A stretch of 64,000 bases of DNA from Tersicoccus sp. Bi-70 (lineage in GTDB: Bacteria; Actinomycetota; Actinomycetes; Actinomycetales; Micrococcaceae), in assembly GCF_001968825.1 (NCBI RefSeq), contig NZ_MIEU01000002.1, positions 496,001 to 560,000 on the forward strand. The letters run 5' to 3'. Every line of letters begins with the position of its first letter. The stretch's first letter is position 1. Made by a program: the position numbers and the translations under genes. The notes under the pieces are model-generated. The model worked only from the letters and a program-made list of their open reading frames with translations, was not told the origin of the DNA and did no database searches. Of this stretch, positions 423 to 7,948 are shown one piece after another.

Positions 423-496
<74 letters not shown>

Positions 497-521
497 CGTT
501 GTGATGTCGGAGGACATCGGC

Positions 522-555
522 AAGGCCCGGACCCACGTTTGTGGGTGCGGGCCTT
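522..555 (+). terminator. rho-independent terminator of tRNA-Pro
   Basis: An almost perfect hairpin begins 26 nt after the tRNA. AAGGCCCG (522-529) pairs with CGGGCCTT (548-555) and ACCCAC (531-536) pairs with GTGGGT (541-546). There is one G/G mismatch and the loop is GTTT. A modest T-rich tail follows. The left arm shares the 13-mer GCCCGGACCCACG with the hairpin at 6061-6095, at the far side of the island. Confidence 0.8.
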
Positions 556-569
556 TGTCATTTCCGGGT

Positions 570-792
570 CCGGGCGGTTGCCGGTGGGTTGGTGGCCCCG
601 GGTGGGGTCGACGGTCAGCTCGCGGAGGAGTTCGCCGGTGGCGGCGTTGACGACGCGGACGTGCAGGTCCTGAACGAATAGCAGGACTTGGGTTCGGTCG
701 ATGCCGATGTGGAGGAGCTTGCCGGCGACGCGCACGGTGACGGTGCCGGTGGCGCCAGTAACGTCCTCGCGGACTCGGTCGGGGTGTCGGCG
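570..792 (-). pseudogene. C-terminal remnant of an IS481-type transposase
   Basis: The minus-strand frame reads VRVAGKLLHIGIDRTQVLLF and then VQDLHVRVVNAATGELLREL, ending near DPTRGHQPTG. From memory this is the conserved tail of actinobacterial IS481-family integrase-like transposases (AGKLHHIG..., GELLREL..DPT.DYQPTG). The DDE catalytic core is absent: the frame is closed by a TGA at 795-793, just upstream of the recognisable part. No inverted repeat is visible. It is therefore a dead fragment between the tRNA-Pro terminator and the IS3 element, and evidence of repeated insertions at this tRNA. Confidence 0.7.
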
Positions 793-853
793 TCAGACAT
801 GGGGCCGGTGTGGCAGGAAGCGTTTAACCGGATGGTGTGGTTTTATCGCGTAA

Positions 854-879
854 TGAATCGCCCCGGGTCTGGTGGAGGG
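854..879 (+). repeat. IS3 element left inverted repeat
   Basis: Twenty-six bases beginning TGAATCGCCCCGGGT. It pairs with the right copy at 2151-2176 in inverted orientation; only bases 16-18 differ (CTG here, TCA there). Confidence 0.88.
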
Positions 880-905
880 TCTGATTCCCCGAGAGGATGA
901 TGATC

Positions 906-1232
906 ATGCCGGCACCGAGGAAGTATCCGCAGGAGTTGCGGGAACGGGCCATGCGGCTCGTGGTTGAGGCTCGTAGGGAGGACCCGGAGCTGTCGCTGAA
1001 CGCCGCGGTGATCCGGGTCGGGCAGCGTACCGGGGTGAACCCGGACACGCTGCGGGGCTGGTCCAAGCAGGCCGCGATCGACGCGGGCGAACGCCCGGGC
1101 ACCAGCACGAACGACGCGGCCCGGATCAAGTCGCTGGAGGCCGAGGTGCGTGAGCTCAAACGGGCGAACGAGATCTTGTTGGCGGCCTCCTCGTTCTTCG
1201 CGCGGGAGCTCGACCCGCGACTGCCGTGGTAG
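906..1232 (+). CDS. IS3-family transposase OrfA (HTH/leucine-zipper part)
   Basis: The 108-residue protein begins MPAPRKYPQELRERAMRLV. This is the typical start of IS3/IS911 OrfA, which binds the IS ends through a helix-turn-helix. A zipper-like segment, IKSLEAEVRELKRANEILL, lies at the C-terminal side and serves oligomerisation in this family. I chose the third of three in-frame ATGs (897, 900, 906) because GAGAGG at 891-896 is correctly spaced from it. OrfB starts in the -1 frame and overlaps the last codons by 7 nt, so the active fused transposase would arise by -1 frameshifting, or OrfB is made separately from its GTG. Confidence 0.88.
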   Translation: MPAPRKYPQELRERAMRLVVEARREDPELSLNAAVIRVGQRTGVNPDTLRGWSKQAAIDAGERPGTSTNDAARIKSLEAEVRELKRANEILLAASSFFARELDPRLPW

Positions 1233-2161
1233 TCCAGTTCATCGACGAGCACCGGGCCCGGTTCGGGGTCGAGCCGATCTGCCGGGTGCTCACCGAGCAC
1301 GGCGTGCCGATCGCCCCGTCCGGGTACTACGCCTTCAAGACCCGTCCCACTTCCGCACGAGCGATCGCCGACGCGGAGCTGGTCGTGCAGATCGAACGAG
1401 TCTTCTGGGACCGCAGCCTGGGGCGTGGGGTCAGCGGCGCCCGGAAGATCTGGCGGCTACTGGCCCGGGAGGGGATCACCGTGGCCCGCTGCACCGTTGA
1501 ACGGCTGATGCGCCAGCACGGGCTGCGCGGTGCCCGCCGGGGAAAGCAGTTCATCACCACCCGCCCGGACACATCATCGCCACGGCCTGAGGATCATGTG
1601 CAACGCGTGTTCACCGCGGACCGGCCGAACCGGCTGTGGGTGGTGGACTTCACCTACGTGGCGACGTGGTCGGGAATGGCGTTCACCGCGTTCGTCACCG
1701 ACGTGCACTCCCGCCGGATCGTGGGCTGGCGCACCATGGACCGGATGCCCACCGACCTGCCCCTGGACGCCCTGGAGATGGCGCTCTGGGTGCGGGACCG
1801 GGCCGGTCAGGACGTCACCGGGCTGATTCAACACTCCGATGCCGGGTCCCAGTACACTCCGCTGCGCTACGCCGAGCGGCTCGCCGAGGTCGCCTCGATC
1901 GGGACCGTCGGCGACTCGTACGACAACGCCCTGGCCGAATCGACGATCGGGCTCTACAAGACCGAGTGCGTGAGAATCGACGGCCCGTTCCGCACCGCCG
2001 ACCAGCTGGAGTTCGCCACGCTGTCCTGGGTGCACTGGTTCAACGAGAACCGGCTGCACTCCTCGATCGGGTACCGCACGCCCATCGAGGCGGAGAACGA
2101 CTACTACCGTCAGAACAACCCCCAGCACCACCCGGCGCTGGGGGAACCCGCCCTCCACTGA
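1226..2161 (+). CDS. IS3-family transposase OrfB (DDE integrase domain)
   Basis: This is the catalytic half of the transposase, about 311 residues. The N-terminal region around FIDEHRARFGVEPICRVL is the HTH_21-like segment. The rve core follows with the catalytic triad visible: first Asp in WVVDFTYV, second Asp in IQHSDAGSQYT, and Glu in NALAESTIGLYKTE. The length is complete for the family. A GTG at 1226 is available, but the biologically relevant product is more likely an OrfA-OrfB fusion made by -1 frameshifting before the OrfA stop at 1230-1232. The gene ends at the right inverted repeat. Confidence 0.92.
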   Translation: MVVQFIDEHRARFGVEPICRVLTEHGVPIAPSGYYAFKTRPTSARAIADAELVVQIERVFWDRSLGRGVSGARKIWRLLAREGITVARCTVERLMRQHGLRGARRGKQFITTRPDTSSPRPEDHVQRVFTADRPNRLWVVDFTYVATWSGMAFTAFVTDVHSRRIVGWRTMDRMPTDLPLDALEMALWVRDRAGQDVTGLIQHSDAGSQYTPLRYAERLAEVASIGTVGDSYDNALAESTIGLYKTECVRIDGPFRTADQLEFATLSWVHWFNENRLHSSIGYRTPIEAENDYYRQNNPQHHPALGEPALH

Positions 2162-2176
2162 ACCCGGGGCGATTCA
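2151..2176 (-). repeat. IS3 element right inverted repeat
   Basis: Inverted partner of 854-879, with 23 of 26 bases matching. The stop codon of OrfB (2159-2161) lies inside this repeat, a compact arrangement common in IS3 elements. Confidence 0.88.
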
Positions 2177-2623
2177 GAGTGGTCGTCCGCGGCTGGGACA
2201 CAACGAGTTGGGCGTCGTCATCATTGACCAGACCTGCAGACGCTACCAGAGTGTAAATTGTCGCTTGTGGGTAGGACAGGCGTTTAGACGTTCTTCCGTA
2301 CCATTCGTCGGTACACTATTCGGCAAACAGCGTGGCGCGTCTGAGCCCGTGATCAATCGCTGACGGGCTGGCACAGTCGGCTGGCGGCGCGCTGGGTGAG
2401 AGGCCCGGCGACACCCTAGCCCTGTGGCAGACTTGATCGTGGGTTTCGAGCGCCTCTGACGTGCCATAGGAGCACTCTGGGCGTGGCTGCATCGAGCGCG
2501 AGCGTCACATGCTTAGGGCTACGGACTTGAAGTCCACTCGGAGCTCTGTGGTCTGCAGGTGAAGTCTTCTCGTCGGTTGCATCACGCTCGGACTTTAGCG
2601 GGAGAAGTCTAAAAGGGGGAACC
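2177..2623. other. island leader, no gene supported
   Basis: This 447-bp stretch lies between the IS3 element and the first island gene. Base composition falls from very GC-rich to mixed across it. I see no reading frame with coding character on either strand: the open frames are short and overlap the next gene antisense. It must contain the promoter of the two rightward genes. A strong Shine-Dalgarno, AAGGGGG, lies just before the ATG at 2624. I could not identify convincing -35/-10 boxes or an operator. Confidence 0.5.
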
Positions 2624-3565
2624 ATGCCACACGCGCTCAAAGCCGCGAGTCTGGATGACTTGCTTCGGGAGTGCCTCACTCTGTTACAGCGAGAAGGGGA
2701 CCAGCTGACGTCGACCCGTGGCTCTAGCACTGAGATTCGCGGCGCCTCCCTGGAGCTCACGAATCCTCGTGCACGGCTCAGCCTCAGTTCCAATCGTGGC
2801 CGGCTGTTCAGTGCACTCGGTGAACTGACGTGGTATCTAGCTGGAACAAGCGATCCGAAGCACATACTTTATTACATCGCGGATTATGGAAGCAAAGTCG
2901 GAAACTATAGCGGTGGTTACGGCCCGCGACTTTTCGGCGCTGGCGATCAAGTTCCACGGGTCATCCGGCAGCTCAAACGCAAGCCGACAACTCGTCAGGC
3001 AGTTGTGCAATTGTTCGATCGAAACGACTTAGATGGCGATCCTAGAGACGTTCCCTGCACATGCTCGCTACAATTCTTTGTTCGAAACGAACGCGTGGAT
3101 TTGATAGTCCATATGAGATCAAATGACGTGATATATGGAATGCCTCACGATATATTTGTTTTCACCTTCTTGCAGGAAATCGTTGCACGCGCCGTGAACT
3201 GTGAAATCGGTACATACACGCATCTGGTCGGTAGCTTGCACATTTACGACTCGAACCAACAGCAAGCGTCAGCATTCCTTGAAGAGGGGGTGATGGACAA
3301 TAAAGCGATGCCTCCCATGCCATTCGGCGATCCGATGATCTCGGTTGCGCGTCTAGTCAAGATTGAGCAAGCACTCCGATTGGCCGAGCCAATTGAGTAT
3401 CACAGTGAACTGGCGTCGTACTGGATGCAACTCGCCGACGTACTGACTGGTTGGAGAGCTTTTAAGGAAAATGACCGCGCAAGTCTCGAACGTATTCGAA
3501 CTCGCCTAGCCGGTTCAATCTATGAGATCTACTTGTCCGACAAGCAGTTTCGATTGGAAAGTTGA
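2624..3565 (+). CDS. thymidylate-synthase-family (d)CMP/dUMP C5 (hydroxy)methyltransferase
   Basis: The 313-residue protein aligns by eye with E. coli ThyA. Visible are the folate/nucleotide Glu in ELTWYLAGT (E67), the catalytic Cys in DVPCTCSLQF (C145), the phosphate-binding Arg-Ser in MRSNDV (R165, S166) and the closing LHIY (H206, Y208). At the base-discriminating site ThyA has GLPFN, whereas this protein has GMPHD (D176). Asp at that position is the known hallmark of T4 dCMP hydroxymethylase and of dCMP-preferring TS mutants, so a cytosine nucleotide substrate is inferred. The usual ThyA C-terminus is replaced by a helical extension. RBS AAGGGGG. The next gene starts 3 nt after the stop, so the two are probably translationally coupled. 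Base composition is far lower in GC than the surroundings (the 60 bases from 3121 contain 21 G/C), indicating transfer. It is unlikely to be the housekeeping ThyA. Confidence 0.85.
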   Translation: MPHALKAASLDDLLRECLTLLQREGDQLTSTRGSSTEIRGASLELTNPRARLSLSSNRGRLFSALGELTWYLAGTSDPKHILYYIADYGSKVGNYSGGYGPRLFGAGDQVPRVIRQLKRKPTTRQAVVQLFDRNDLDGDPRDVPCTCSLQFFVRNERVDLIVHMRSNDVIYGMPHDIFVFTFLQEIVARAVNCEIGTYTHLVGSLHIYDSNQQQASAFLEEGVMDNKAMPPMPFGDPMISVARLVKIEQALRLAEPIEYHSELASYWMQLADVLTGWRAFKENDRASLERIRTRLAGSIYEIYLSDKQFRLES

Positions 3566-3568
3566 CAG

Positions 3569-4507
3569 ATGAGGAAGAACTACATTGCTGATGCGCAGCG
3601 AATTGGGTCGAGTATCGCAGCTTACGAATCGAAGAACAAAACTTTGCCTGGGATCTCGTCCTCCGGCGCTCGAGAGACTCTCATAGAGCAGATAATCGAC
3701 AGCGAGCAGCGGGTGAAATACACTGATCGACTTGACAATATGCAGCTTGATCCTAGTGCAGTTGATCCGACCTCCGACGGATTTCACCCGCTGAAAGCAT
3801 CGATCCTTCATCGGCGTTCCGGAAATTACGACGAAGCTGTTTGGTTGGTATACCTGTATGTTCATTTCGGTCGACACCGGCGCGCTGGATGGCGGTATGT
3901 CCGAGATACATATGGAGCTCTAGGATCTGATCGTTCCGATTGGTGGACGTGGGACCGTATATCTGAAGAGCCGTTTGCATTTAGACTTTGGCTCGACAAA
4001 AATAAAAATGAGTTTGGACGCGCCCCGGGGCAGCACGGATTTGGCAATCATCGAAAATACGAGAGCCTGGACGCCATGGGCGACCGAGGGACCGGAGCGG
4101 CTGTAACCAGTTACGTTGAGTGGGTCCTTTCGGCGGCAGACGGTCACAATGAGAGGTTTGCCGTCTTAAAAGAGCAGAGCCCCGAGGAGACCTTCCAAGC
4201 AATATACCGCTCGCTTCGCTCAGTAGTGCGCTTCGGCCGTATTGCGAAATTCGATTACACTACAATGATTGGAAGACTCAAATTGGTGGATGTCAAGCCG
4301 CCACACACATACTTGACGGGAGCGACCGGTCCGCGGTCAGGAGCTGCCTTGCTACTTCGCGGGAACCCTGACGCTGGAACTCCGACCGAACTCCAAGCGG
4401 AACTCAGCAGAATATGCACAGCCATTAACGTAGCTCCTGATGTTATGGAAGACGCAATTTGTAACTGGCAGAAAGACCCCGAAAACTACATCAGGTTTTC
4501 AGCGTAG
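3569..4507 (+). CDS. putative DNA base hypermodification protein (aGPT-pyrophosphorylase clade 3-like)
   Basis: A 312-residue, mostly helical, soluble protein. From memory it resembles the family called 'alpha-glutamyl/putrescinyl thymine pyrophosphorylase clade 3', DNA-glycosylase-fold proteins that Iyer, Aravind and colleagues linked to thymine hypermodification in phages. Landmarks are RRSGNYDEAVWLVYLYVHFG (82-101), a Trp-rich SDWWTWDRI (123-131), HGFGNHRKYESL (156-167) and RFGRIAKFDYTTMIGRL (221-237), followed by a GATGPRSGA loop. It starts 3 nt after the TS-like gene and shares its low GC, so the two form an operon and probably a pathway. Its last 17 bases overlap the 3' end of the convergent antitoxin gene. 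Family assignment rests on pattern memory, and the catalytic mechanism in this clade is unproven as far as I know. It could be a different helical DNA-binding protein. Confidence 0.55.
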   Translation: MRKNYIADAQRIGSSIAAYESKNKTLPGISSSGARETLIEQIIDSEQRVKYTDRLDNMQLDPSAVDPTSDGFHPLKASILHRRSGNYDEAVWLVYLYVHFGRHRRAGWRYVRDTYGALGSDRSDWWTWDRISEEPFAFRLWLDKNKNEFGRAPGQHGFGNHRKYESLDAMGDRGTGAAVTSYVEWVLSAADGHNERFAVLKEQSPEETFQAIYRSLRSVVRFGRIAKFDYTTMIGRLKLVDVKPPHTYLTGATGPRSGAALLLRGNPDAGTPTELQAELSRICTAINVAPDVMEDAICNWQKDPENYIRFSA

Positions 4508-5582
4508 AATCGTCCCAATGGTATCTCCTAATTAGCCGTCGCAATTGATTATATTGCAATATTCCTTCATGGTGAAGTTGACCAACGACCACGCCTGGGG
4601 CGACGCCCTCTGCTGCGGCAAAAGCTAAAACTCGCCGCATCGTCGGTCTTGTTTCGCGGAATCTTGTCAGGCCGGTCGGAATCAGTGCATTACGGGCAAA
4701 CGTGTTCGCCTCATCTTCGACATTCGACTCGCCCTCTCCTGGATCCAAGATGTCCAAGAACGAGTCCTCGTTGCTGTGCAACAGCAGGTGTGCTATCTCG
4801 TGGAATAAAGTAAACCACAAATGATCTTCCGCAAGGTGTCTACCAGTCAGACCTATGACCCTCTGTCCGCTCTCTAAAACGAAAGCTGCACCACTGAGTC
4901 TGTTTCCTGCTGGGGCCGGAAATAGCTGGAGGGCCACGCCGGAAGATGCGATTAAGGACTGGGCGACAGACAGAGACTTCGAAATATCACTAAGTTTGCT
5001 CAAGTGGCGCAATTCCGGCAGTAGGCTGCGGAGACGGCTAGGGTCCCACCGGCTGACGGATATTTGCGAGGCTCCGCGTTCGACTTGCCTCAACCAAGCG
5101 GCGACTGACAAGTCTTCCGACTTGAATGCCTTCGATGAGCGAAAGTGTGTCTCTGATAGGCGTGGCGCCCACTTAGCAGTCCATTCGGCCGCGTCCCTGA
5201 CGTCGTAAAAACTCAATAGTGCACGCGCTTGGCTTTTCCACCCGCTGGTTGCTTCGAGCCAACCTTTACCGACCATATCGGCAATTGGCGATCGTTGGAC
5301 AAGTGAATCTGCATCAAGCCAAGCAAGTGATTCACGGTACGAGGAATCGCGAACAAGCCAAAAGTTTGGCGTGGACCCCACGAACCTTGCCAATGCGACT
5401 GCAAGATCGCCCGTGATTTCAGTTTGTCCGTCGATCAGTTGCTGAGCTTCCACTAGGCGTATGCCGAGTCCATCCGCTAGTTGCTCTGAGCGCTGCCCGC
5501 GCGAGTCTAGGATCCGACGAATGGTGTCTCCTGGGGCCGATGCCCAGCGTGGATCGTCGTCAATTCTGTTTGGAGTAGTCAT
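4491..5582 (-). CDS. HigA-type antitoxin fused to ImmA/IrrE metallopeptidase
   Basis: A 363-residue two-domain protein. Residues ~15-75 form a HigA/VapI-like helix-turn-helix (SEQLADGLGI...QLIDGQTEITGDLAVALARF, then the family-typical GSTPNFWL). Residues ~205-300 form an ImmA/IrrE zinc-peptidase domain with HEIAH at 261-265 and a downstream acidic ligand region EDEAN. The stop of the toxin gene (5584-5582) and this ATG (5582-5580) share one base, so the pair is translationally coupled; GGAGG lies 11 nt upstream. A start at 5600 is possible but less likely. In known relatives the HTH autoregulates the operon and the peptidase may cleave repressor or antitoxin. That is inference here. Its 3' end overlaps the hypermodification gene by 17 nt. 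Confidence 0.85.
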   Translation of the reverse strand: MTTPNRIDDDPRWASAPGDTIRRILDSRGQRSEQLADGLGIRLVEAQQLIDGQTEITGDLAVALARFVGSTPNFWLVRDSSYRESLAWLDADSLVQRSPIADMVGKGWLEATSGWKSQARALLSFYDVRDAAEWTAKWAPRLSETHFRSSKAFKSEDLSVAAWLRQVERGASQISVSRWDPSRLRSLLPELRHLSKLSDISKSLSVAQSLIASSGVALQLFPAPAGNRLSGAAFVLESGQRVIGLTGRHLAEDHLWFTLFHEIAHLLLHSNEDSFLDILDPGEGESNVEDEANTFARNALIPTGLTRFRETRPTMRRVLAFAAAEGVAPGVVVGQLHHEGILQYNQLRRLIRRYHWDDSTLKT

Positions 5583-5902
5583 CAATTTACTTGCCTCCAT
5601 CCCATGACCTTAATTCGGTCCACTCTGGTCCACGCGATGGATCCATCGATTGCCGTGCGCAGAGGGACATGATCGACACGGCAATCGAGTATGGCCGTGC
5701 TGCCGGCCGCCAGACCGAACGAAGCGGGATTGATCTTGTTCATATCTGGTACTCCTAGTGGAACCTCAAGAAGTGAAGCGGCGGTCCTCAAGTCAGCTAT
5801 CAGCGATTGAATGTCCTCGAGCGTTCGTACGGAGGGCCACTCGAACGGATCTGGCTCTAAGATTGACTGACGCAACGCTTGGTTCTCGAAGCTGATCTGC
5901 AT
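5582..5902 (-). CDS. HigB/RelE-like toxin
   Basis: A 106-residue protein beginning MQISFENQALRQSI. It matches the layout of HigB-type killer proteins: MEISF..., a helical segment LIADLRTAASLLEVP, then a beta-rich half ending DGSIAWTRVDRIKVMGW. HigB toxins are ribosome-associated mRNA interferases in characterised cases. Several usual basic residues of the HigB core are replaced here, so activity is uncertain. The gene precedes the HigA/ImmA fusion with a one-base overlap, the standard toxin-first HigBA order. AAAGG is present upstream but rather far from the ATG. The gene is low in GC like the rest of the island. Confidence 0.7.
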   Translation of the reverse strand: MQISFENQALRQSILEPDPFEWPSVRTLEDIQSLIADLRTAASLLEVPLGVPDMNKINPASFGLAAGSTAILDCRVDHVPLRTAIDGSIAWTRVDRIKVMGWRQVN

Positions 5903-5968
5903 CTGTTTTCTGATACCTTTTGGGGTTCGCGCTCTCGCCGCCCGACCGGAACGGTGCGCCCGAGACTT

Positions 5969-5979
5969 TCATCCCGACG
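5969..5979 (+). repeat. 11-bp copy of the tRNA-Pro 3' end (candidate attachment remnant)
   Basis: TCATCCCGACG is identical to bases 488-498 at the 3' end of tRNA-Pro. It lies at the right edge of the low-GC cassette, 84 nt before a hairpin that shares a 13-mer with the tRNA terminator. Two shared blocks in the same order at both ends suggest an old tRNA integration, but 11 bp is short enough to be chance in GC-rich DNA. No integrase gene remains. Confidence 0.3.
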
Positions 5980-6060
5980 ACCCCATGGTAGTGCAAGCCT
6001 TTTCCAGGTCGGTTCAGTCTATCGTCGTGGGATCCACGTGTCGTAGCCTGTCACATACCA

Positions 6061-6095
6061 AGAGCCCGGACCCACGCAACGTGGATCCGGGCTCT
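6061..6095 (-). terminator. hairpin terminator at the island / AKR boundary
   Basis: AGAGCCCGGA (6061-6070) pairs perfectly with TCCGGGCTCT (6086-6095) and CCACG (6072-6076) pairs with CGTGG (6080-6084). There is one C/A mismatch and the loop is CAA. It lies 18 nt beyond the stop of the leftward aldo-keto reductase, which it probably terminates. The T tract is weak. Confidence 0.7.
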
Positions 6096-6113
6096 CGCCG
6101 TTGAAGCAGGGAG

Positions 6114-7049
6114 CTACGGAACCCGGTAGCCCGCCGCGCGGAACAGGTCGTACCACTCCGCCTTGGTCAGCGGCACGGCCGACCCCTGTGCGGCGCCCGA
6201 CACCCGCTCCGGCGTCGTCGTGCCCAGGACCACCTGCATCTGCGCCGGGTGGCGCGTGATCCACGCCGTCGCGATGCCCGTCGTCGGCACGTCGTACTTC
6301 GCCGCCAGCTTGTCGATCACCGTGTTCAGCTCGGCGTACTCGCTGTTGCCGAGGAACGGTCCGTTGAAGAAGCCAGCCTGGAACGGCGACCATGCCTGCA
6401 CGGTGATCTTGTGGATCCGGCAGTAGTCGAGGATGCCGCCCGCGTCCAGGGTCAGCGACTGGTCCTCACCCACCATGTTCGCCGCCACGCCCTGGGCGAT
6501 GATCGGCGCGTGCGTGATAGACAGCTGCAGCTGGTTGGCCACCAGCTCCTGCTTCACCGCCGTCTTGAGCAGGTCGATCTGCCGCGGCGTGTGGTTGGAG
6601 ACGCCGAACGAGCGCACCTTGCCCGCGGCCTCCAGCTCGTCGAATGCCTGCGCCACTTCCTCCGGCTCCACGAGCGCGTCCGGCCGGTGCAGCAGCAGGA
6701 TGTCGATGTAGTCGGTGTTCAGAGCCTTCAGCGAGCCCTCGACGCCCTCGATGATGTGGTCGTGGGAGAAGTCGAAGTACGGCCCCTCCGGCACGATGCC
6801 GACCTTGGTCTGCAGGGTGATGTCCGCGCGCTGCGACGGCGTCAGCTGCATCGCCTTGGCGAACCGCTCCTCGCAGTCGTGCACGTGGGCGCCATAGACG
6901 TCGGCGTGGTCGAAGAAGTCGATGCCGGCGTCACGCGCGGTCTTCACCAGCGTGCGGATCTCGTCGTCGCTCTTCTCCGAGATGCGCATCAGGCCGAGCA
7001 CCACGTTCGGGGCGGTCTGGCCGCCGGGGCCCAGGGGAACACTCTTCAC
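6114..7049 (-). CDS. aldo/keto reductase (YdhF-like)
   Basis: A 311-residue NADPH-dependent carbonyl reductase of the AKR barrel fold. The Asp-Tyr pair is in FFDHADVYG, the Lys in LQTKVGI and the His in LLHRPD, completing the catalytic tetrad. The middle of the protein (SITHAPIIAQG...LDYCRIHKITVQAWSPFQAG) resembles E. coli YdhF and related oxidoreductases of unknown substrate. The GTG start at 7049 is preceded by AGGAG. It lies 38 nt downstream of a second AKR on the same strand, so the two probably form an operon opposite a LysR regulator. Confidence 0.9.
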   Translation of the reverse strand: MKSVPLGPGGQTAPNVVLGLMRISEKSDDEIRTLVKTARDAGIDFFDHADVYGAHVHDCEERFAKAMQLTPSQRADITLQTKVGIVPEGPYFDFSHDHIIEGVEGSLKALNTDYIDILLLHRPDALVEPEEVAQAFDELEAAGKVRSFGVSNHTPRQIDLLKTAVKQELVANQLQLSITHAPIIAQGVAANMVGEDQSLTLDAGGILDYCRIHKITVQAWSPFQAGFFNGPFLGNSEYAELNTVIDKLAAKYDVPTTGIATAWITRHPAQMQVVLGTTTPERVSGAAQGSAVPLTKAEWYDLFRAAGYRVP

Positions 7050-7087
7050 GGTTGACTCCTGTCAGGAAGCAGTAGGGGAGGGAGGGG

Positions 7088-7948
7088 TCACGCGGCGTTG
7101 AGCGCGTCCAGCTCCTCGGCCGTGAGCGTGAGGTCGGCCGCCTTGACGGAGTCGGTGATGCTCTCGGGCCGCGACGCACCCGGGATCGGGACAACGATCG
7201 GCGCGAGCGCGAGCTCCCATGCCAGGGCGACCTGCTGCGGGCTGACGCCGTGTGCCTCGGCCACCTGGCCGAAGGCGTCGTGCTTGCTGCCGAGGTCCCC
7301 GGCCTTGCCGATCCCGCCGAGCGGCGACCACGGCAGGAACGCGACACCGATCGAGGCGCAGTGCTGCAGCTCCTCGAGGCTGGTGCGGAACGCGGGGGAG
7401 AACTGGTTCTGCACGGAGACCAGCCGGCCGCCGAGCACCTTGTTCGCCTCGTCGATCTGGGCGACCGTGGCGTTGGAGATGCCGGCCATCTGGATGACGC
7501 CCTCGTCGAGCAGCTCGACGAGCGCACCGATCGAGTCGGCGTAGGCGACGTCCGGGTCCGGGCGGTGGAACTGATACAGCCCGATGGCGTCGACGCCGAG
7601 CCGCTTGGCCGAGGCCTTCGCCGCCTCCTTGAGGTACTCGGGCCGGCCGTTCTGGGTCCACGAGCCGTCACCGGGGCGCAGGTGGCCGCCCTTGGTGGCA
7701 ACCAGCACGTCGTCGGTGCTGCCGCTGTAGCTGCGCAGCGCGTCGGCGATCAGCTGCTCGTTGTGGCCGACCTCGTTGCCGTCACGGTGGTAGGCGTCCG
7801 CGGTGTCGATGAGGGTGACGCCGGCGTCGAGCGCGGCGTGGATGGTCGTGACGGAGCGCTCCTGCTCGGGGCGGCCCTCGATGGACATGGGCATGCCGCC
7901 CAGGCCGATGGCCGAGACGGTGTGGGTTCCGATCTGACGCTGCTGCAC
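7088..7948 (-). CDS. aldo/keto reductase
   Basis: A 286-residue AKR beginning (V/M)QQRQIGTHTVSAIGLGGMPMS, the usual first strand of AKR5/AKR13-type enzymes. Catalytic Asp and Tyr are in LIDTADAYH, Lys in VATKGG and His in QFHRPD. I prefer the GTG at 7948-7946 because CTGGAGG lies seven bases upstream and the protein then starts exactly at the family's N-terminus. An in-frame ATG at 7981, with its own AGGAGG, would add 11 residues. First gene of the leftward pair, divergent from the LysR gene at 8074, which may control it. Confidence 0.9.
   Translation of the reverse strand: MQQRQIGTHTVSAIGLGGMPMSIEGRPEQERSVTTIHAALDAGVTLIDTADAYHRDGNEVGHNEQLIADALRSYSGSTDDVLVATKGGHLRPGDGSWTQNGRPEYLKEAAKASAKRLGVDAIGLYQFHRPDPDVAYADSIGALVELLDEGVIQMAGISNATVAQIDEANKVLGGRLVSVQNQFSPAFRTSLEELQHCASIGVAFLPWSPLGGIGKAGDLGSKHDAFGQVAEAHGVSPQQVALAWELALAPIVVPIPGASRPESITDSVKAADLTLTAEELDALNAA

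Follow-up and report, generated by a model that had tools for sequence, protein, structure and literature searches.

A mobile four-gene cassette in Tersicoccus sp. Bi-70 that joins a putative cytosine-modifying enzyme pair to a facing HigB-fold/HigA-protease operon

Four facing genes and their distribution

We analyzed a 64,000-nucleotide stretch of the Tersicoccus sp. Bi-70 genome (contig NZ_MIEU01000002.1, positions 496,001 to 560,000 of the forward strand), referred to here as the window, and describe a convergent cassette near its start in which two genes for predicted base-modifying enzymes face a two-gene operon on the minus strand. The first plus-strand gene (P0001, 2624..3565) encodes a 313-aa enzyme of the thymidylate synthase (TS) superfamily that resembles MilA and deoxycytidine monophosphate (dCMP) hydroxymethylases by Pfam, profile match, and residues. 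It is followed after 3 nt, on the same strand, by the gene for P0002 (3569..4507), a 312-aa protein with the motifs FGRxxxFD and EDxxCNWQK, placed by Pfam and its fold model in the aGPT-Pplase3/ADDT family (below, aGPT3). The P0003 gene (4491..5600, minus strand) overlaps the 3′ end of the P0002 gene by 17 nt and encodes a 369-aa fusion of a HigA-like helix-turn-helix (HTH) and an ImmA/IrrE (M78) metalloprotease with an HExxH motif, recognized by Pfam and as PD-Lambda-2_B-like by PADLOC. The gene upstream of it, first in the minus-strand operon (P0004, 5582..5902), overlaps it by 19 nt and encodes a 106-aa protein with a HigB/RelE fold according to its fold model.

All four genes are low in guanine-plus-cytosine (GC) content, with 0.520 and 0.522 for P0001 and P0002 and 0.538 and 0.542 for 4491-5600 and 5582-5902, compared to 0.728 for window positions 8000-64000. 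An earlier, sequence-only reading had singled out the plus-strand genes as two low-GC open reading frames (ORFs) 3 nt apart, encoding a TS-family enzyme and a protein of aGPT-pyrophosphorylase clade 3. We recover both genes at 2624..4507 (GC 0.52 versus 0.73) and both assignments, P0001 matching PF00303 (E 8.7e-24, residues 63-221) and P0002 matching PF18746 (aGPT-Pplase3, E 1.6e-86, 290.7 bits, cut-off 25). The same reading took the two genes for the whole module and missed the regulatory, toxin-antitoxin-like half of the cassette. Gene-content counts over 116 loci lead us to reject a two-gene module: the facing protease and HigB-like genes are conserved partners, and the cassette is a four-gene convergent unit rather than a pair.

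These loci, the window and L004-L118, were found by similarity to P0002, with the own-genome copies and own ThyA region (L001-L003) excluded from the counts. The genome scan took the best 80 of 218 relatives, and the viral-contig scan gave 26 loci. The EDxxCNW and FxNHRxY motifs of the P0002 family seeded the scan, so their conservation is partly selected; the TS, protease, HigB-like, and FGRxxxFD features played no part in locus selection. Profiles used for counting were trained on 39 of the sequences for the HigB-like protein and on 7-8 for the TS, aGPT3, and protease families. For residue alignments, sequences below 180 bits were removed, leaving 114 TS, 115 aGPT3, and 113 protease sequences.

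A TS gene is present in 114 of the 116 loci, a facing protease in 112, and both in 110, while a HigB-like gene adjoins the protease in 108 and the complete four-gene set is found in 106. In 114/116 loci, the TS gene is found no more than 2.2 kb upstream of the aGPT3 gene and in the same orientation, a pairing shared so widely that it is not due to chance; the two enzyme genes do occur together elsewhere. Among the incomplete loci, the sequence stops at or just behind the aGPT3 gene in L020, L065, and L098, starts inside that gene in L118, and stops at the protease gene in L040, L097, and L105. The protease pair is placed on the opposite strand in L025, and in L011 the ORF at the HigB-like position resembles that of L012 and was missed by the profile. 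When 102 non-redundant loci are compared pairwise, the identities of the three large proteins are correlated with one another (rho of 0.53, 0.57, and 0.64, against shuffled maxima of 0.14, 0.16, and 0.18 in 200 shuffles each), which indicates that these proteins travel together.

Carriers belong to the Actinomycetota, Pseudomonadota, Acidobacteriota, Chloroflexota, Gemmatimonadota, Myxococcota, Verrucomicrobiota, Bacteroidota, and Planctomycetota, with the Spirochaetota as a tenth phylum in which the cassette is on a plasmid. Eight plasmid records match P0002, the eighth with match figures equal to those of the seventh, and all seven inspected have the order TS, aGPT3, and facing ImmA/IrrE gene, the last annotated as hypothetical in L011 and recognized there by profile. 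In the Leptospira plasmid (L009, 5977-6910), the aGPT3 reading frame is broken into two ORFs, and this copy may thus be inactive. The cassette also occurs at 26 loci on viral contigs, a category in which prophage, satellite, and plasmid are not told apart, while a tblastn search for phage relatives of P0002 found none in 50,697 records. PF18746 is rare, with matches in 3 of the 297 genomes searched from the order (own genome included) and in 7 of 396 from the phylum, of which two matches are strong (own genome included) and five are weak and partial. The weak matches (22.9-29.9 bits) come from five genera of one family (G414, G435, G582, G680, and G688) and are perhaps a distant helix-hairpin-helix (HhH) paralogue outside the cassette.

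An optional fifth gene of about 265 aa is found in 41/116 loci, upstream of aGPT3 in 40 of the 41; the window's cassette lacks it. Its motifs GLNPSNREF and GxNHNxQSSFG resemble, in our estimation, those of the uracil-DNA glycosylase (UDG) superfamily. TIGR04274 (DNA-deoxyinosine glycosylase) is matched by 2/25 members (best 8.3e-4), while Pfam returned no UDG family for four members, a profile search against solved structures returned no UDG (all matches with E >0.1), and comparison with E. coli Mug gave a probability of 0.3%. The fifth gene is a possible member of the UDG superfamily. In a quick tree of the P0002 family (108 rows), this gene appears to be gained or lost repeatedly, 13 times by parsimony with at least 3 forced, numbers that are provisional because the tree labels the gene by a length rule in 32 rows, as opposed to 41/116 loci by profile. 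Its placement varies in L032 (9378-10160), where it follows aGPT3 and precedes the protease gene rather than lying between the enzymes. L060 has an extra small DUF4031 gene (2781-3089; PF13223, 1.3e-25) between the TS and UDG-like genes; L067 has a look-alike ORF in the same interval (6848-7150), judged by appearance only, and L082 has a TS to UDG-like gap of similar length.

The two predicted enzymes

Within the TS superfamily, the cassette enzymes are closest to MilA. A profile of eight of them, compared with solved structures, matched MilA at 5.3e-71 over 264 of 323 profile positions, versus 1.2e-26 for the best thymidylate synthase. P0001 has the catalytic residues C145, E67, H206, and Y208 and, at the positions associated with specificity, R124, S166, and D176. 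Counting MilA equivalences along the pairwise profile alignment, we find the catalytic cysteine (MilA Cys155) in 114/114 aligned cassette enzymes, aspartate at the position of MilA Asp186 and E. coli TS Asn177 in 113/114, serine at the position of MilA Ala176 in 114/114, and arginine at the position of MilA Lys133 in 109/114 (lysine in 4, gap in 1). Asp186 of MilA has been tied to recognition of cytosine, and Ala176 and Lys133 to that of ribose, with serine and arginine found in their place in deoxyribose enzymes (PMC5175136); the same Asn/Asp rule is described for dCMP (PMC8670742). The conserved Asp, Ser, and Arg residues therefore form a cytosine and deoxyribose signature of the dCMP 5-hydroxymethylase type, and the product of P0001 is likely to be 5-hydroxymethyl-dCMP rather than a thymine derivative. 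The TS proteins of L010, L072, L112, and L113 have lysine as in MilA and keep the serine and aspartate; these four may tolerate cytidine monophosphate. Thymidylate synthesis is otherwise provided for in nearly all carriers searched: the own genome encodes a separate ThyA, a typical ThyA is found in 12 of 20 other carriers, and ThyX is found in 7 of the remaining 8.

P0002 also matches the ADDT family (PF18724, E 1.3e-55, 189.1 bits, cut-off 26.2), and its AlphaFold2 model, built from 76 sequences, has a predicted local distance difference test (pLDDT) score of 94.0. A Foldseek search of BFVD with this model gave two matches below 0.001, the first being a phage ADDT-domain protein (2.7e-5). The top VIA-align match is gp46 of phage PaMx11, a 5-phosphomethyl-deoxyuridine (5-PmdU) glycinyltransferase (8z2n; Z 10.3, 218 aligned residues, 4.2 Å), followed by Mag1 (Z 8.9), MutY (8.5), and AGOG and OGG1 (about 6-8), although VIA-align warns that all-helical models can reach Z 5-10 by chance arrangement. 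Behind gp46, 18 rows (Z 5.2-8.9), Mag1 among them, bear the title of a DNA glycosylase, a MutY homologue, or an endonuclease III. All but one of the top 21 rows are gp46 or such proteins (the exception being a hypothetical archaeal protein), and Z then falls to 2.9 at row 22, which argues in favor of a real relation. The model speaks for an HhH DNA-glycosylase-like fold that is closest to gp46. At the sequence level, E294, D295, C298, N299, W300, and K302 are kept in 114/115 homologues (one gap), within a motif that partly seeded the scan.

Phages activate 5-hydroxymethyluracil by a kinase before the transferase acts. The second step here probably differs from that route, since the 5-hydroxymethyl-deoxyuridine (5-hmdU) kinase PF18723 is missing from 20 of the 21 carrier genomes searched, the own genome included. 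This absence, together with the conserved cytosine residue, also lowers the standing of a phage-type thymine hypermodification. In the one exception, Larkinella rosea (G306), a PF18723 match (1.7e-96; C13:101050-101871) lies about 755 kb from the cassette on the same contig and is perhaps part of a second base-modification locus. The sequence-only reading had noted that the phage kinase was missing and had placed the second protein near hypermodification families, and both points stand, the latter through the BFVD match to ADDT and the gp46 match. It had further spoken of a modified pyrimidine; a hydroxymethylase-type TS with a hypermodification-family partner is what we find, but its residue signature is that of dCMP rather than of an unspecified pyrimidine.

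The facing operon and its genomic site

P0003 matches the M78 peptidase family in Pfam and, over residues 101-359, PADLOC PD-Lambda-2_B (E 1.1e-35), while its HTH matches HigA structures. The H, E, and H of its HExxH motif are each found in 112/113 protease homologues, with one gap. The assignment of P0004 comes from its model (pLDDT 93.9), for which the top Foldseek match is 9chn_B (E 3.7e-3, probability 1.00; none at ≤0.001) and VIA-align reaches Z 7.4 to HigB/RelE-type toxins. Neither Pfam nor PADLOC returns a RelE/HigB match for the P0004 sequence, and a profile of the small proteins matches solved structures only with E >0.8. In this family, only F5, R11, D37, and R96 are nearly invariant. 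We therefore call P0004 HigB-like by predicted fold alone, and its toxin activity may be lost, given the missing toxin sequence match and the few invariant residues.

In the PD-lambda-2 system, the HigA-peptidase is reported to be toxic alone and to be rescued by the HigB-like protein (PMC9519451). Makarova 2009 predicted a system of three components, with Xre-COG2856 fusions working together with RelE or PIN toxins or taking part in a broader regulatory cascade (PMC2701414). In the present cassette, the regulated component would be the enzyme operon. No third gene lies beside the pair: 211 nt separate position 5902 from the start of the reductase gene (6114), and the only ORF listed in this interval (6019-6393) overlaps the reductase gene. 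None of 41 small proteins matched any PD-Lambda-2 model at E 0.1.

The cassette is flanked by tRNA-Pro(GGG) (423..497, plus strand), the probable integration site of the island, and by an aldo/keto reductase gene. An 11-bp repeat, TCATCCCGACG, located at the 3′ end of the tRNA (488..498) recurs beyond the cassette (5969..5979). These two plus-strand copies are candidate left and right borders, and the repeat occurs three times on the plus strand of the whole window. Between the tRNA and the cassette lies an insertion sequence (IS; 854..2176, plus strand) bounded by 15-bp terminal inverted repeats (positions 854 and 2162) and containing ORFs at 897-1232 and 1226-2161, which we take to be IS3-type. 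The reductase region is retained in the two congeners of the collection but adjoins different genes there. The L132 interval is likewise bordered by tRNA-Pro, while the L131 stretch ends before reaching any tRNA. The interval between tRNA-Pro and the aldo/keto reductase gene is thus a variable site. It holds the IS and cassette in the window (423-6060) and a DUF2891 gene and others in L132. The L131 stretch contains a 679-aa protein with a weak, below-cut-off NACHT match (0.0057), along with two further ORFs and a related IS (79% identity over 679 columns). Six proteins of the congener cargo at this site gave no PADLOC match at 0.01.

Possible functions and relation to known systems

We tentatively favor, at somewhat less than an even chance, the explanation of a horizontally moving cassette for anti-phage defense (inter-genome conflict), one that would make a 5-modified cytosine and elaborate or excise it under the control of a HigB/HigA-protease switch. 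The TS-superfamily enzyme would hydroxymethylate dCMP to 5-hydroxymethyl-dCMP, and the aGPT-Pplase3/ADDT protein would act on 5-hydroxymethylcytosine (5hmC), either in the nucleotide or in DNA. In this second step, the 5-oxygen function would most likely be exchanged for another group, with cutting of the glycosidic bond less likely, and in about a third of loci the UDG-superfamily candidate would join the two enzymes. The convergent operon of HigB-fold protein and HigA-HTH/ImmA-IrrE protease, of the PD-lambda-2AB kind, would serve as a switch that restrains the system and releases it upon infection or DNA stress.

A role in defense is consistent with the genomic neighborhood. We compared the 134 nearest flank ORFs of genome loci, taken on each side from 217 candidates of 150-700 aa (greedy ORF calls), with 134 of 199 control ORFs from 20 stretches, one per carrier genome (20), at positions chosen by the analyst. 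At 1e-10, the flank ORFs matched 235 PADLOC models, a count of models rather than of flank proteins with a defense match, and the control ORFs matched 6. Among the flank matches listed (25 of 235) are models for type I specificity, type III methylase, SIR2, AbiEii, SduA, MzaA, mad2, mad3, and mad8. The control models (mad2, mad3, DndA, SspA, and two ZorB) we read as housekeeping look-alikes.

Several observations weigh against the anti-phage explanation. The 235 flank matches do not translate into a number of defense proteins, defense genes surround other mobile cargo too, and neither P0001 nor P0002 matches a PADLOC model. The structural case for P0002 is subject to the VIA-align caution on helical models, and a Foldseek search of the PDB with the P0002 model gave no match at E ≤0.001, the best being an 8-oxoguanine DNA glycosylase at 0.78. 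An hhalign comparison of the P0002 family with eight gp46-family rows is likewise weak (probability 8%, E 0.0043), with 122 columns in register through the FGxxxxF and E[DT]xxCxW motifs. The comparison with gp46 alone is uninformative (probability 2.5%), and P0002-family profiles matched solved-structure sequences only with E >0.2. Genome searches found no PF18723 kinase in the own genome or in 19 of 20 other carriers, and one carrier (G313) has no typical ThyA or ThyX match. Finally, the Chryseolinea serpens cassette (L057, 6900-8000) comprises the UDG-like gene, aGPT3, and the HigB/HigA-protease pair, with a typical ThyA elsewhere in the genome, but lacks the TS gene, and no convincing remnant was found at the locus; there, the TS step may be dispensable or otherwise supplied. 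What we observe is the gene content, its conservation, the specificity residues, the predicted folds, mobility, and the defense-gene neighbors; from these we infer a product derived from dCMP, a second enzymatic step, a switch, and a role in defense.

The same evidence allows for other functions. The cassette could hypermodify cytosine in the cell's own, island, plasmid, or prophage DNA as protection or as an epigenetic mark, with no killing arm and with the facing pair only regulating. Phage ADDT and hypermodification proteins, which serve DNA protection, are the closest viral structural matches, and plasmids and viral contigs carry the cassette. We nevertheless consider this unlikely, as there is no constant restriction partner (no PADLOC model is matched by more than 2/134 nearest flank ORFs, in a scan that did not search for other kinds of partner), cytosine replaced by way of dCMP would leave the mark on any DNA synthesized in the cell, including that of foreign origin, and 20/21 carriers searched have no 5-hmdU kinase. 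A comparably low probability attaches to the idea that, as in mildiomycin biosynthesis, the enzymes make a 5-modified cytosine nucleotide or free base, which would poison phage or cell polymerases or nucleotide metabolism, with no mark left in DNA. Of all solved relatives, MilA is much the nearest to P0001, and it feeds the pathway of this nucleoside antibiotic (PMC5175136), but the deoxyribose-type Ser/Arg pair is conserved, unlike in MilA, and a fixed set of 4-5 genes is unlike an antibiotic cluster, biosynthetic partners not having been searched for. Slightly less probable is a poisoned-base form of defense, in which the protease switch opens on infection, 5-hydroxymethyl-dCTP floods the phage or cell, and the cassette's own glycosylase-fold proteins shred new DNA, with aGPT3 and, where present, the UDG-like protein excising or cross-substituting the 5-hydroxymethylated base. 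If true, a defense that first makes a base and then turns on it would invert Brig-type immunity, in which the base under attack is phage-made.

A maintenance or addiction role, in which stabilization of a plasmid or island by the HigB-fold/HigA-protease pair is the main business and the enzymes are a toxin arm or passenger, is lower still in our estimation. It draws on the HigBA-like architecture, the presence on plasmids, and the toxicity of the PD-lambda-2 HigA-peptidase alone with rescue by the HigB-like protein (PMC9519451). Against it, the enzyme operon equals the pair in its degree of conservation and is inherited along with the protease, and is thus hardly a passenger. An ordinary duplicate of nucleotide metabolism, with a spare thymidylate synthase beside an unrelated gene, would agree with PF00303 membership and is very improbable given the constant gene partnership, the own ThyA elsewhere, and Asp at the Asn177 position in 113/114 enzymes, the last two of which lead us to reject a housekeeping thymidylate synthase.

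A cellular, mobile cassette present in at least ten phyla, with an enzyme of the dCMP-hydroxymethylase type and a base-tailoring enzyme of the phage type, would mean that bacteria themselves employ hypermodified cytosine chemistry, probably for defense, and that it is not confined to phages. At four genes and 3.3 kb, the cassette is a small, concrete target that would offer a putative modified base, transferase reaction, and protease-controlled switch, and it suggests where MilA, an enzyme of nucleoside-antibiotic synthesis, may find close kin. The cassette's domain families and its kind of HigA-protease are already known, as is the concept of defense through base chemistry. The aGPT-Pplase/ADDT families were probably first described by Iyer 2013 and Burroughs 2015, and a literature search outside these two papers found no description of a gene set with the dCMP signature, gp46-like fold, and HigB/HigA-protease pair. 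To call the cassette apparently undescribed, as was done from the DNA alone, was too strong in that an aGPT-Pplase system had already been predicted (PMC13092281), while no description of the full gene set was found in the literature searched.

When compared to MilA (PDB 5b6d, 5jnh), the cassette enzyme shares the catalytic Cys, Glu, His, and Tyr and the Asp for cytosine, whereas it has Ser/Arg of the deoxyribose type in place of Ala176/Lys133 and belongs to a mobile cassette rather than a nucleoside antibiotic pathway. T4 dCMP hydroxymethylase was compared through the residues given for it in PMC5175136. For P0002, which belongs to the aGPT-Pplase and ADDT families with bit scores far above the cut-offs, gp46 (PUGT) of PaMx11 is the closest solved fold, with the FGxxxxF and E[DT]xxCxW motifs common to both in a profile alignment that is weak overall. 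The gp46 pathway uses a 5-hmdU kinase, whereas 20 of the 21 cassette carriers searched have none, and because the partner enzyme is predicted to act on dCMP, the substrate here would be 5hmC rather than 5-PmdU. With PD-lambda-2 (HigB-like A, HigA-peptidase B, and P4-antitoxin-like C), the cassette shares an overlapping HigB-fold gene upstream of a HigA-HTH/M78 fusion; it differs in having no counterpart to the C component and in being coupled to an enzyme operon instead. Brig3 is described as a UDG-superfamily defense enzyme that acts on 5hmC (PMC13160076); it attacks phage-made 5hmC, whereas the cassette would make 5hmC itself, with a UDG-like gene in 41/116 loci and not in the window's copy. 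In DefensePredictor (PMC13092281, 2026), the aGPT-Pplase system is listed as a predicted, unvalidated defense system that shares the domain name, and the Fig. 6F legend also explains HTH and UDG, a comparison made by text only. A thymidylate synthase domain and a 5-hmdU kinase domain both occur among the units validated in that study, which ties TS-type base chemistry to phage defense.

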